Below are positions 52,145-56,180 of a stretch of DNA of 64,000 nt, in pieces. The DNA lies in NCBI GenBank assembly GCA_021819135.1, contig JAKASE010000001.1:157683-221682 (forward strand), in the 5' to 3' direction. The stretch's first letter is position 1. Each line of letters starts with the position of its first letter. The notes under the pieces are model-generated. The model ran no database searches and was not told where the DNA came from. It saw nothing but the letters and a program-made list of their open reading frames with translations. The stretch comes from Thermoplasmata archaeon (GTDB lineage Archaea > Thermoplasmatota > Thermoplasmata > Lutacidiplasmatales > UBA184). Position numbers and translations under genes: made by a program.

Positions 52145-52957
52145 CTATAAGGGTTTATCCAGCGCCGGAGCACCGTTCGCCCCGGCGGAGGCCGCGGACG
52201 GCGCCCCCTCGGTGATGAGCGAGAAGACCCGGTCGGTGAGATCGTAGAACGCGGTCGACTTGCGGTCCCGGGGACGGGGGAGGTCGACCGGTACCTCCGC
52301 GAGGATGTGACCCGGGCGCCGCGAGAGCACGATCACCCGGTCCGCGAGCTCGATCGCCTCCTCGATGTTGTGCGATATGAGGAGGACCGCTTCCGGCGGG
52401 AGGGCCGGGTCCCTCCAGAGCTGGAGGACCTCGTCGCGAAGGTTGGCCGCGGTGAGGGGGTCGAGCGCGCTGAACGGCTCGTCCATGAGCAAGACGGCCG
52501 GCTCCACCGCGAGCGCCCGAGCGAGCCCGACGCGCTGGCGCATCCCGCCGGAGAGCTCCCTCGGGTACGCCTCCTGGAAGCCGTCGAGCCCGATGACGGA
52601 GATGTACCGCTCCACCTGGGGTCCGATCCGACCGGGCGACCAGCCGAGCGCCTCGAGGCCGAACGCCACGTTCTCGGACACCGTAAGCCACGGGTAGAGG
52701 GCGAAGCTCTGGAAGACCATCGCCATCTGGCGGCAGACCCCGTCGACCGGCGCGTCCCGGAAGTAGATCTGGCCGCCGGAGGGGCGGTCCAGGCCCTGGA
52801 TCAGCCGGAGCAGGGTCGACTTGCCGCATCCGGACGGCCCGACGATGGCGAGGAAGTCGGCATCCTTCACCTCGAAGGAGATGTCCTGCATGATCGCGAT
52901 CGAGCCGTGGCGCGAGGCGAAGTTCTTGTCGACGTGCTCGACCCGGATCAGCGCCAC
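52145..52957 (-). CDS. ABC transporter ATP-binding protein, nitrate/sulfonate/taurine type (TauB-like)
   Basis: 270 residues. Walker A GPSGCGKSTLL, Q-loop FQSFALYPWLTV, signature LSGGMRQR, Walker B VLLMDEPFSALD and SHNIEEAIELADRV are all present. FQSFALYPWLTV and ALDPLT are the TauB/SsuB style. GTG 52957 follows GGGAGGGCAAG, consistent with a coding start 33 nt after the permease stop. It works with the duplicated permease encoded just upstream. Confidence 0.93.
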   Translation of the reverse strand: MALIRVEHVDKNFASRHGSIAIMQDISFEVKDADFLAIVGPSGCGKSTLLRLIQGLDRPSGGQIYFRDAPVDGVCRQMAMVFQSFALYPWLTVSENVAFGLEALGWSPGRIGPQVERYISVIGLDGFQEAYPRELSGGMRQRVGLARALAVEPAVLLMDEPFSALDPLTAANLRDEVLQLWRDPALPPEAVLLISHNIEEAIELADRVIVLSRRPGHILAEVPVDLPRPRDRKSTAFYDLTDRVFSLITEGAPSAASAGANGAPALDKPL

Positions 52958-52989
52958 CTTGCCCTCCCGACCGCGGACCGCGACCCCGG

Positions 52990-54630
52990 TCAGTCGTACC
53001 GGTACTGGGTGACCGCTCGGCGGTAGAGCGGCTTCCATATGAGCTCGTTGATGGCGACGACCGTGCCGACGAGCGTCAGGAGGGCGACCGCGAGGAGCGC
53101 GTACCCCGACGCCCCCAGGTTGGTGCCGATGTCGATCAATTGACCGATCCCGAGGACGCTCAGCTGCTCGTGCTGCCCGAGACTGAGGTACTCGGCCACG
53201 ATCAGCGTGTTCCAGCCTCCGCCGAACGCCGTGATCGAACCGGTGATGAGCGCGGGGAACGTCGCGGGCAGGAGCACGCGCCGCAGGAACCGGGGGCCGC
53301 GCACCCCGTAAGCGTGGGCGGCCTCGACCAGGTCCGGCGGGACCGCGCGGATCCCGGAAAGGAGATTGAAGAACAGGTACCAGATCATGCCGGTGAGCAG
53401 CATCAGGATGGCGGCGCCTTCCGGGGTGAGGAACGGCACAAGGCCGAAGATGATCACCGGGAAGAGGGCGGTCGCGGGGAACGAGGCGACCACTTCGATG
53501 ACCGGAAGCCCGACGCGGCCCGCGAGGGAGCTGCGGGCGACCTGGATCGCGAGGGGCAGGGCGATCGCAAGGCAGATCGCATAGGCCGCGACGACCCGCA
53601 GGATCGAGGCGCCCATCGCGAGCGGGACGAGCGCGATGTCGTGCTGCTCGGTGCTCGCGATCGGCCCCCGGAAGACGTCGAAGATCGCCACGCCGAGCGC
53701 GATGAGAAGGAGCCAGAGGAGCACCAGGATCGCTCCGAGCGACAGATAGTACACGAGGGATCGGGTGCGGGCGCTGGCGGTATGACCGGGACGGGCCCGG
53801 ATCAGCGCGAGCTGGACGAACGGGGTGCTCAGTCGAGCCATCCCGGTGCGCACTCCGCGCGTGACGAACATCGTGGCCCGTCGGATCCGGCCCGAGGCAT
53901 CCCGGCCGGGGAGCGCCTCCGAGGCCTCGCCCGCCGGGGTCGTGTCATAGCGGAACCGCTCGGCCCACCGGCCGAGCGGTCGCCACACCGCGAAGTCGAG
54001 GATCGCGATGACGAGGACCAGGACGAGGATCCCCGCCAGGAACTCGGCACTGTTCCCGTCGCTCGCCGCGTAGGAGAGGTAGCTCCCGATCCCGGAGAGC
54101 GAGGTGGAGGTGCCCGTGGTGAAGATCTCCGCCTCGACCAGGAAGAACCAGCCGGCGGTCCAGGAAAGGACCGAGTTGTAGACGAGCCGGTTGACCGTCG
54201 CTGGGAACAGGACGCGCCGGAAGAGGAGGATCCCCCGGAGGCCGAAGGTGTCGGCGGCCTCCTTGAGGTCCGCCGGCAGGGTCTTCAGCGACTCGTAGAC
54301 GCCGAAGACCATGTTCCAGGCCATGGACGTGAAGATTAGGAAGACGGACGCGAAGTTCGGGCCGACGAAGCTCCCGGGGGTCGCCATCGCGAGCACGGCG
54401 ATCGCGAACGGGAAGAACCCGAGGATCGGGACGGACTGGAGGATATCGAGGACCGGGATCATGACGCGTTCGCCGCCGCGGTGGGTGGCGGCATAGTAGC
54501 CGTATCCGAGCGCGAAGCCGAGCGAGAGCGCGTAGGCGATCAGCATCCGGACGAAGGAGTACGACGTGTCGAGCACGGCGGTCGGCAGATAGGCGCCGAT
54601 CCCGCCGAGGCCACCGCCGGCGGAGACCAC
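52990..54630 (-). CDS. duplicated ABC permease (COG4986 type), N-terminus uncertain
   Basis: At least 546 residues with two binding-protein-dependent permease domains. The EAA-type loops are LKEAADTFGLRGILLFRRVLFPA (about 120-142) and LVEAAHAYGVRGPRFLRRVLLPA (about 440-462). GTG 54630 is the only ordinary start, but the frame is open upstream and encodes more of TM1 (LYVAIPLGTTALLVV). No ATG, GTG or TTG precedes it. A TATA-like CAAATAG (near 54855) and an ATG at 54833 occur in another frame, so a frameshift near the N-terminus or a rare start is likely. Anion import (for example sulfonate or nitrate) is the family role; substrate unknown. Confidence 0.8.
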   Translation of the reverse strand: MVSAGGGLGGIGAYLPTAVLDTSYSFVRMLIAYALSLGFALGYGYYAATHRGGERVMIPVLDILQSVPILGFFPFAIAVLAMATPGSFVGPNFASVFLIFTSMAWNMVFGVYESLKTLPADLKEAADTFGLRGILLFRRVLFPATVNRLVYNSVLSWTAGWFFLVEAEIFTTGTSTSLSGIGSYLSYAASDGNSAEFLAGILVLVLVIAILDFAVWRPLGRWAERFRYDTTPAGEASEALPGRDASGRIRRATMFVTRGVRTGMARLSTPFVQLALIRARPGHTASARTRSLVYYLSLGAILVLLWLLLIALGVAIFDVFRGPIASTEQHDIALVPLAMGASILRVVAAYAICLAIALPLAIQVARSSLAGRVGLPVIEVVASFPATALFPVIIFGLVPFLTPEGAAILMLLTGMIWYLFFNLLSGIRAVPPDLVEAAHAYGVRGPRFLRRVLLPATFPALITGSITAFGGGWNTLIVAEYLSLGQHEQLSVLGIGQLIDIGTNLGASGYALLAVALLTLVGTVVAINELIWKPLYRRAVTQYRYD

Positions 54631-54936: not shown

Positions 54937-54946
54937 CTTTTATCAA
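54937..54946 (+). promoter_or_regulatory. TATA box for the tRNA-Gln/tRNA-Leu pair
   Basis: CTTTTATC with centre about 29 nt upstream of the tRNA-Gln 5' end. No separate box is seen before tRNA-Leu, so both are likely in one transcript. Confidence 0.65.
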
Positions 54947-54969: not shown

Positions 54970-55076
54970 AGCCCCGTGGTGTAGTGGCCAATCATGCGAG
55001 ACTCTGGATCTCGCGACGCAGGTTCGAACGCCGCGGGGGAGGCGAACCCCGACGACCGAGACTCCTGCCGGGGCTA
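54970..55076 (+). tRNA. tRNA-Gln (anticodon CTG) with a 34-nt intron in the T-loop
   Basis: Exons 54970-55028 and 55063-55076. Acceptor AGCCCCG/CGGGGCT (discriminator A), D-arm GTGT...TCAT, anticodon stem CGAGA/TCTCG with loop CTCTGGA (anticodon CTG), variable CGAC, T-stem GCAGG/CCTGC, T-loop TTCGAA+T. The intron (55029-55062) is inserted after nucleotide 59. A bulge-helix-bulge is formed by central helix TTCG/CGAG (one G-U) with bulges AAC and ACT, each cut after the second base. Noncanonical introns at 59/60 are known elsewhere in archaea. A TATA-like CTTTTATC (54937-54944) lies about 30 nt upstream. Confidence 0.88.
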
Positions 55077-55103
55077 CTCCGATCGCGTGAACGAGGTCAC
55101 TGT

Positions 55104-55248
55104 GCGGGGGTGCTCCAGCTCGGCCAAACCGTCCTTCGCGGACGGGGCTCGCGAGGCAGGGCTTAGGACCCTGTTGCCTAGGGCATGCGCCGGTTCAAAA
55201 CACCGGGCGGCGAACGTCGCCGCCGGTCGGAAACTCCGGCCCCCCGCA
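55104..55248 (+). tRNA. tRNA-Leu (anticodon TAG) with two introns (D-arm, T-loop)
   Basis: Exons 55104-55127, 55152-55199 and 55235-55248 make an 86-nt class II tRNA. Acceptor GCGGGGG/CCCCCGC, D-stem CTC/GAG, anticodon stem CAGGG/CCCTG with loop CTTAGGA (anticodon TAG), variable arm TGCC-TAG-GGCA, T-stem GCCGG/CCGGC, T-loop TTCAAA+T. Intron 1 (24 nt, 55128-55151) has a perfect BHB: central GGCC/GGCT, bulges AAA and CGC, inner hairpin CCGTCC/GGACGG. Intron 2 (35 nt, 55200-55234) is at 59/60 with a relaxed BHB (TTCA against GGAA, three pairs). It is 27 nt from the Gln gene and probably co-transcribed. Confidence 0.85.
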
Positions 55249-55280
55249 TTCCGCCCCGCGACGGGGCGAGGTCGCCTCCG

Positions 55281-56180
55281 ATGGGCGCGTTCGTGAGCCC
55301 GACCCCGGCGGAGATCCTCGCCCTCGAGCCCGAGGCCGCCGACGAGCTCCTCGAGGAGCTCGAGCGGAACGTGCCGGTGCAGCCTTCGCTCCTCCCCCTG
55401 CGAGGCGCCGAGGAGGCGTTCGTCTTCGGGGACTCGCACGGAGATTGGCGTTCGACCCAGGAACTCGTCACGCGCTGGCTCACCCTCGACCCCCCGGCGC
55501 TCCTGGTCGGGTTAGGGGACTACGTCGACCGTCATCCGGACGACTGCCCGAACGGCTCGGTGGCGAACGCCCTGTACCTGCTCAGCCTGGCCGCCCGATT
55601 CCCCCAGCGGGTCGTACTGATCCAGGGCAACCACGAGACCGCCCGCCGGCTCCCGGTCCTCCCGCGATCCCTGCCTGAGGAGATCGATGACCTCTGGGGA
55701 CCCCGCGACGACCGGTACGAGCGGCTGGTCGGACTCCTCGAGCGGGGACCGGTCGCCGCCACCACCGAGAGCGGGGTCTACCTCGCTCACGCCGGTTTCC
55801 CGCGGGAGCGGCCGCCGGGGCGCTGGGCGGGGGCGTTCGAGCGCCCGGACGACGACGCGCTCGCCGACATCGTGTGGGCCGAATGCGATGCCTCGCGCAA
55901 CCGGCGGGGAGCGGCGCCCGCTTGGGGTCGGGCGGATCTCGATCGGTTCCGGCAGGATTCCGGGCTCGGCGTCTTCCTCCGGGGACATGACCCGGATGTG
56001 GTCGGCCGACCGCTCTACGACGACCGGTGCCTCACGCTCCACACGACGCGGATCTACGAGCGCTACGGAGGGGTCATCGCGGCCCGGGTCCCCCTCGGGA
56101 GCCGGATCGATTCGGTCCGCTCCCTGTCGGTGGAGCACCTCCCCAGCGAGGGGCGATCGTACCGGTCAGCGGTCGACTAG
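55281..56180 (+). CDS. PPP-family metallophosphoesterase (Ser/Thr phosphatase-like)
   Basis: 299 residues. Motifs: FGDSHGDWRS (about 58-67), GDYVDRHPDD (about 88), GNHETARR (about 127) and later GVYLAHAGF and LRGHDPDVVGRPL. This is the PPP-phosphatase metal-site series GDxHG, GDxVDRG-like, GNHE, and two His. ATG 55281 lies in the spliced-tRNA flank. Substrate unknown; archaeal PPP enzymes act on phosphoproteins. Confidence 0.88.
   Translation: MGAFVSPTPAEILALEPEAADELLEELERNVPVQPSLLPLRGAEEAFVFGDSHGDWRSTQELVTRWLTLDPPALLVGLGDYVDRHPDDCPNGSVANALYLLSLAARFPQRVVLIQGNHETARRLPVLPRSLPEEIDDLWGPRDDRYERLVGLLERGPVAATTESGVYLAHAGFPRERPPGRWAGAFERPDDDALADIVWAECDASRNRRGAAPAWGRADLDRFRQDSGLGVFLRGHDPDVVGRPLYDDRCLTLHTTRIYERYGGVIAARVPLGSRIDSVRSLSVEHLPSEGRSYRSAVD

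Follow-up and report, generated by a model that had tools for sequence, protein, structure and literature searches.

Conserved T-loop introns at position 59/60 in neighbouring tRNA-Gln and tRNA-Leu genes of Candidatus Lutacidiplasma, an archaeon with a loopless two-unit splicing endonuclease

Here we describe two neighbouring interrupted tRNA genes in a 64,000-nucleotide stretch of DNA (the window) from an archaeon of soil or acid habitats. The first-pass annotation of the window, made from its letters alone, had proposed a Thermoplasmatota origin, and this was correct; the host genus is Candidatus (Ca.) Lutacidiplasma. The type genome, Ca. Lutacidiplasma silvani AcS3-62, agrees in contig numbers and in match coordinates with a genome that is assigned to the window's genus. 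The tRNA pair is flanked by genes whose translations read as an ABC-transporter ATPase and permease on one side and a metallophosphoesterase-like protein on the other. The features of the locus are as follows, with an arrow marking each predicted cut:

52145-54630, minus strand: ABC-transporter ATPase/permease genes
54938-54946, plus strand: TATA-box-like putative promoter element TTTTATCAA, read in the sequence
54970-55076, plus strand: interrupted tRNA-Gln(CUG), whose spliced form is a full cloverleaf
54970-55028 and 55063-55076, plus strand: tRNA-Gln(CUG) exons, by exact mapping
55029-55062, plus strand: Gln intron of 34 nt at position 59/60, four-pair helix TTCG/CGAG, bulges AA↓C and AC↓T
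55104-55248, plus strand: doubly interrupted tRNA-Leu(UAG), folding as a full class II cloverleaf once spliced
55104-55127, 55152-55199 and 55235-55248, plus strand: tRNA-Leu(UAG) exons, by exact mapping
55128-55151, plus strand: Leu D-arm intron of 24 nt at about position 21/22, helix GGCC/GGCT, 3-nt bulges AA↓A and CG↓C
55200-55234, plus strand: Leu T-loop intron of 35 nt at position 59/60, TTC/GAA pairs plus an A57.G mismatch, bulges AA↓A and AC↓T
55185-56180, plus strand: metallophosphoesterase-like gene

The TATA-like element lies ∼25-30 bases upstream of tRNA-Gln, and several congeners carry a similar TTTATCAA at the matching place. Since only 27 nt separate the two tRNA genes and the element stands upstream of both, they are likely to be read as a single transcript.

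Exact mapping confirmed to the base the lengths and splice sites that had been proposed for all three introns, two in T-loops and one in a D-arm. Once spliced, both genes yield proper cloverleaves in ARAGORN, in line with the earlier proposal that intron removal restores the stems. Read without splicing, tRNA-Gln is reported by ARAGORN as a malformed tRNA and scores 22.4 bits against the Rfam tRNA family, under the gathering cut-off of 29 bits, and the contiguous tRNA-Leu is neither recognised by ARAGORN nor matched by the Rfam family. That standard tools miss these genes or score them low would suit a reading of both as decayed pseudogenes or misassemblies with random inserts, to which we assign an almost negligible probability. 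A tRNA family search of the genome found no second or intron-free copy of either gene, whose intact presence elsewhere the first-pass annotation had named as evidence against splicing; no further Gln(CUG) or Leu(UAG) gene turned up. The same tandem is present in 12 separate assemblies of the genus, the window's genome included (nearly all the genomes compared in this work are apparently metagenome assemblies), with a mean exon identity of 98% for Gln and Leu alike and an intron identity of 70% for Gln, 65% for the Leu D-arm and 68% for the Leu T-loop. Despite this drift in sequence, intron length is conserved and the central helix TTCG/CGRR of the Gln intron is kept in 12/12 genomes, as are GGCC/GGCY in the Leu D-arm intron (24-30 nt long) and TTC/GRA with a constant A57.G in the Leu T-loop intron. 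Conserved exons, diverged introns and maintained pairing together argue that the inserts are not the product of chance, and the same anatomy recurs in the 118 interrupted T-loops that we collected across the phylum; on the strength of this conservation the pseudogene or misassembly reading was rejected.

The proposed membership of these introns in the bulge-helix-bulge (BHB) class is borne out most fully by two of the three, as had been claimed: the Gln T-loop and Leu D-arm introns show an exact four-pair helix with two 3-nt bulges in all 12 genomes. In the Leu D-arm intron of the window, this is joined by an inner helix of six pairs (CCGTCC/GGACGG), and the inner helix abuts the bulge in most of the 12 genomes. 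Removal of the introns gives a standard cloverleaf for both genes, and the genome encodes both a splicing endonuclease (EndA) and the ligase RtcB, one gene of each. Two observations on the Leu T-loop intron count against the BHB assignment, namely that it has only three Watson-Crick pairs followed by A57.G in all 12 genomes, and that the minimum-energy fold of the isolated Leu T-arm lacks the central helix, so that the BHB is not formed. The isolated Gln T-arm, by comparison, folds spontaneously into the expected central helix.

EndA composition had been put forward as a check: the enzyme is of the two-unit alpha-prime-2 type, and the loop of the broad-specificity types is absent. It is encoded by a single open reading frame with two PF01974 units, and its nearest relatives in the PDB are the enzymes of Methanopyrus, A. 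fulgidus, M. jannaschii and ARMAN-2. From YG to LSLLEA, the catalytic unit aligns without gaps to the M. jannaschii and A. fulgidus enzymes, and the alignment shows none of the extra residues of ARMAN-2 EndA; neither a three-unit protomer with the ARMAN-specific loop nor an (alpha-beta)2 enzyme with the Crenarchaea-specific loop describes the EndA found here. The Crenarchaea-specific loop is judged absent from the gap-free match to these narrow enzymes rather than from a direct alignment with A. pernix EndA. Acquisition of a crenarchaeal-type EndA by transfer was considered and rejected, as the only EndA found is the two-unit alpha-prime-2 protein, and inspection of the catalytic unit by eye revealed no loop peculiar to the genus. 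The structural unit is longer than that of A. fulgidus, as it also is in relatives outside the genus, and other families of the phylum show the same EndA layout by eye. Extra EndA loops have been tied to broad specificity, and the alpha-prime-2 enzyme of A. fulgidus is reported to accept only the canonical BHB (PMC12397907); an opposing view holds that homodimeric EndA also cuts bulge-helix-loop (BHL) motifs (PMC8707768). Two readings accordingly remain. A narrow EndA may be enough because the motif is canonical though its position is not, which suits the Gln T-loop and Leu D-arm introns, or homodimers may be broader than thought, a breadth that A57.G and the 13-nt introns described below would require.

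The collected T-loop introns follow a strict rule. All 118 lie between A59 (118/118) and T60 (118/118), and in 118/118 nucleotides 54-56 form three pairs with the intron, against 0-44 when the pairing partner is slid, although these counts include related sequences and are not independent. G57 stands opposite C in 42/48 introns. A57 is opposite T in 17/19 and G in 2/19 introns outside the Lutacidiplasma family, and within that family it is opposite G in 42/51, a mismatch that ends the central helix. The absence from EndA of the loops linked to broad specificity would fit inserts that are retained in the mature RNA, where the enlarged T-loops would serve some special function. We hold this to be very improbable, as the insert always falls between A59 and T60, so that its removal restores the consensus T-loop, as its length ranges from 13 to 50 nt, and as the conserved pairing of nucleotides 54-57 would block the elbow between D-loop and T-loop.

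We conclude with high confidence that these are genuine BHB introns, with predicted cutting by EndA and joining by RtcB, in two single-copy and probably co-transcribed tRNA genes of Ca. Lutacidiplasma, with 59/60 as the main intron site of the lineage. In the mechanism that we propose for the T-loop, T54-R57 would pair with the 3′ end of the intron, leaving A58-A59↓N and NN↓T60 as the bulges. After transcription, the alpha-prime-2 EndA would cut each bulge between its second and third bases, and RtcB would then join the exons into a standard TTCRA-A59-T60 T-loop. The introns are free to drift save at the helix and bulges, and their gain is likely to have preceded the genus and, probably in part, the order.

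A census of the window's genome found 42 tRNA genes by combining the Rfam tRNA family, inspection of weak matches and searches with a covariance model derived from seven interrupted tRNAs, and is a lower bound, as genes with several introns may escape it. Their introns are distributed as follows:

59/60 introns (12/42 genes): Gln CUG, Leu UAG, Glu CUC, Asp GUC, Arg UCU, Arg UCG, Gly UCC, Ala GGC, Ser GCU, Ser GGA, Lys UUU and His GUG
D-arm introns: Leu UAG, Lys UUU, Arg GCG, Pro UGG and one Met
Anticodon introns: Tyr, Met, Glu UUC and Leu UAA

Some 45% of the genes (19/42) are thus interrupted, as compared with ∼8% in Euryarchaeota (PMC4090602). The presence of A59 and T60 is not significantly special to the tRNAs interrupted at 59/60 (12/12 against 22/30 of the others, P 0.08). 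The D-arm-interrupted tRNA-Met (which starts AGCGGGG), tRNA-Arg(GCG) and tRNA-Pro(UGG) are loci L029, L043 and L138. The genome also holds two tRNA-Ile(GAU) genes (L006 and L007), both near contig ends, with T-stems GCCGG/CCGGC and GTCGG/CCGAC respectively.

The site shared by Gln and Leu had been taken in the first-pass annotation as a sign of recent intron movement or duplication, and the two genes are indeed adjacent, with identical sites and similar intron lengths; a different genus of the phylum, moreover, does show copying between tRNA genes (see below). The comparison with other tRNAs of the genome that the annotation had called for did find the 59/60 site again, in 12 genes, but not alike sequences: the 12 T-loop introns are no more similar to one another than shuffled sequences are (P ∼0.39), leaving recent movement in this genome unsupported. 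Both introns are present in 12/12 tandems of the genus with diverged sequences, and both tRNA-Gln(CUG) and tRNA-Leu(UAG) are also interrupted at 59/60 in a sister family. Recent local duplication or transposition between the neighbours was rejected on the lack of similarity beyond shuffles, and we consider it improbable. Gln and Leu share the site as a result of the preference for 59/60 introns in the genome and the order as a whole.

The reach of these introns beyond the genus was followed with the covariance model. Within the family, 58/58 sampled genomes from 7 genera gave 7-13 matches at E ≤ 1e-10; among the matches listed, most are ∼100 nt long, and a few intronless tRNAs also fall under this threshold. 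In the sister family (f3, represented by G014), nine tRNAs carry 59/60 introns of 13-14 nt, close to the 11 nt quoted for the shortest archaeal tRNA introns. In one example, TTCAAA↓AGTGAACTGAAAA↓T, the helix TTCA/TGAA can form but the intron is too short for an inner helix. A further intron, of the anticodon or D-arm kind, is present in several of these nine genes (L068 and L140-L147). The sister family and the window's genome have seven of the nine isoacceptors in common (P ∼0.0005-0.001), a result in favour of either common ancestry or a strong bias in targeting. Across the phylum, 53/245 genomes gave a match at E ≤ 1e-12, some of these matches being of intronless length, and all of the long matches retrieved from outside the order (20/20) carry 59/60 introns. 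One such group (f8) belongs to the same class, has methyl-coenzyme M reductase (MCR) in 7/7 tested genomes and is interrupted in tRNA-Arg(UCU); its MCR and class make it probably Methanomassiliicoccales. In these MCR-bearing Thermoplasmata (L185, L187, L190, L193 and L194) the 59/60 intron of tRNA-Arg(UCU) is 20-27 nt long. Judged from the sequences, 59/60 introns thus appear to be a trait of the whole order and to be scattered through Thermoplasmatota. The Lutacidiplasmatales paper used tRNAscan-SE and does not mention introns (PMC9287336), and PMC8450103 mentions a BHB model whose training set consisted of introns from Crenarchaeota and Euryarchaeota.

Movement of 59/60 introns is better seen elsewhere in the phylum. 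In a genome outside the class (G088), a near-identical intron, ATGAAGGGYTKNNCCCTTTCAAAACC..TGAAAA, occurs in five tRNA genes, Asp, Glu, Ala(UGC), Arg(CCU) and Leu(CAA), which have three different T-stems; this likeness, computed on four of the five genes, is significant at P<0.001. The near-identical intron was read at loci L176, L177, L278, L280 and L306, and the loci compared in its congener G304 are L311, L313 and L314. G304 has no exact copy of this intron pattern, but related introns are found in its Arg(GCG), Arg(CCG), Gly(CCC), Ser(CGA) and Ser(GGA) genes, and its tRNA-Asp is intron-free, reading TTCGAAT as against TTCAAA↓T in G088. Five genes with nearly the same intron in one genome and an empty Asp site in the other indicate that 59/60 introns spread, and their movement in this genus is well supported by the sequences compared. 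That the filled Asp gene has A57 where the empty one has G57 hints at co-conversion, although a later compensatory change towards pairing with the intron would look alike. More broadly, and tentatively, since we rate it at somewhat less than an even chance, the T-loop introns of Thermoplasmatota may be site-specific mobile RNA introns that keep inserting at TTCRAA↓T of tRNA genes in archaea with a loopless EndA, whether through reverse splicing with reverse transcription or through conversion of short tracts.

The kind of intron described here is already known; its distribution, its focus on one site and the enzyme that accompanies it are unexpected. Thermoproteales carry BHB introns that include 59/60 and may number several per gene (Sugahara 2008; Fujishima 2010, reviewed in PMC4033280 and PMC4090602), much as in the genomes described here, and near-identical introns in their different tRNA genes have been taken as transposition (PMC4033280, PMC4090602), a pattern absent from the window's genome but seen in G088. 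In contrast to the many intron positions and the (alpha-beta)2 EndA with its Crenarchaea-specific loop in Thermoproteales, nearly all noncanonical introns seen here fall either at a single T-loop site or within the D-arm, and the accompanying EndA is a loopless alpha-prime-2 enzyme. The earlier remark that crowded noncanonical introns are known mostly from Thermoproteota was incomplete, as they are also known from Thaumarchaeota (PMC8450103), from Korarchaeum and ARMAN (PMC4033280), and from Asgard archaea. Korarchaeum cryptofilum, called in 2014 the only alpha-2 archaeon with noncanonical introns (PMC4033280), likewise combines these with a homodimeric two-unit EndA, but its enzyme is said to have a specific loop that the enzymes here lack, and the trait here is order-wide and partly phylum-wide. 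ARMAN-2 similarly pairs noncanonical introns with a homodimeric (epsilon-2) EndA (PMC12397907); its protomer, however, has three units and an ARMAN-specific loop with Y160/K161, as against a two-unit enzyme here that lacks any insertion at the corresponding place. The Asgard Atabeyarchaeia and Freyarchaeia also have many noncanonical introns outside Thermoproteota, but with 92-95% of tRNA genes interrupted (PMC11291895) they far exceed the 59/60-focused set of the window's genome.

On a practical level, users should be aware that tRNA finders, and with them completeness checks of metagenome assemblies, can miss genes of this kind, as happened here with ARAGORN and Rfam. Noncanonical tRNA introns are linked, in the current model, to an EndA with an extra RNA-anchoring loop, and a whole order, with scattered members of the phylum, that combines a loopless alpha-prime-2 EndA with many 59/60 introns, together with minimal introns of 13-14 nt that lack an inner helix, offers a direct test of that model. 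Should the group with interrupted tRNA-Arg(UCU) prove to be Methanomassiliicoccales, its cultured members would make splicing testable now. The occurrence of filled and empty sites within one genus opens the gain of tRNA introns, a long-standing question, to study.
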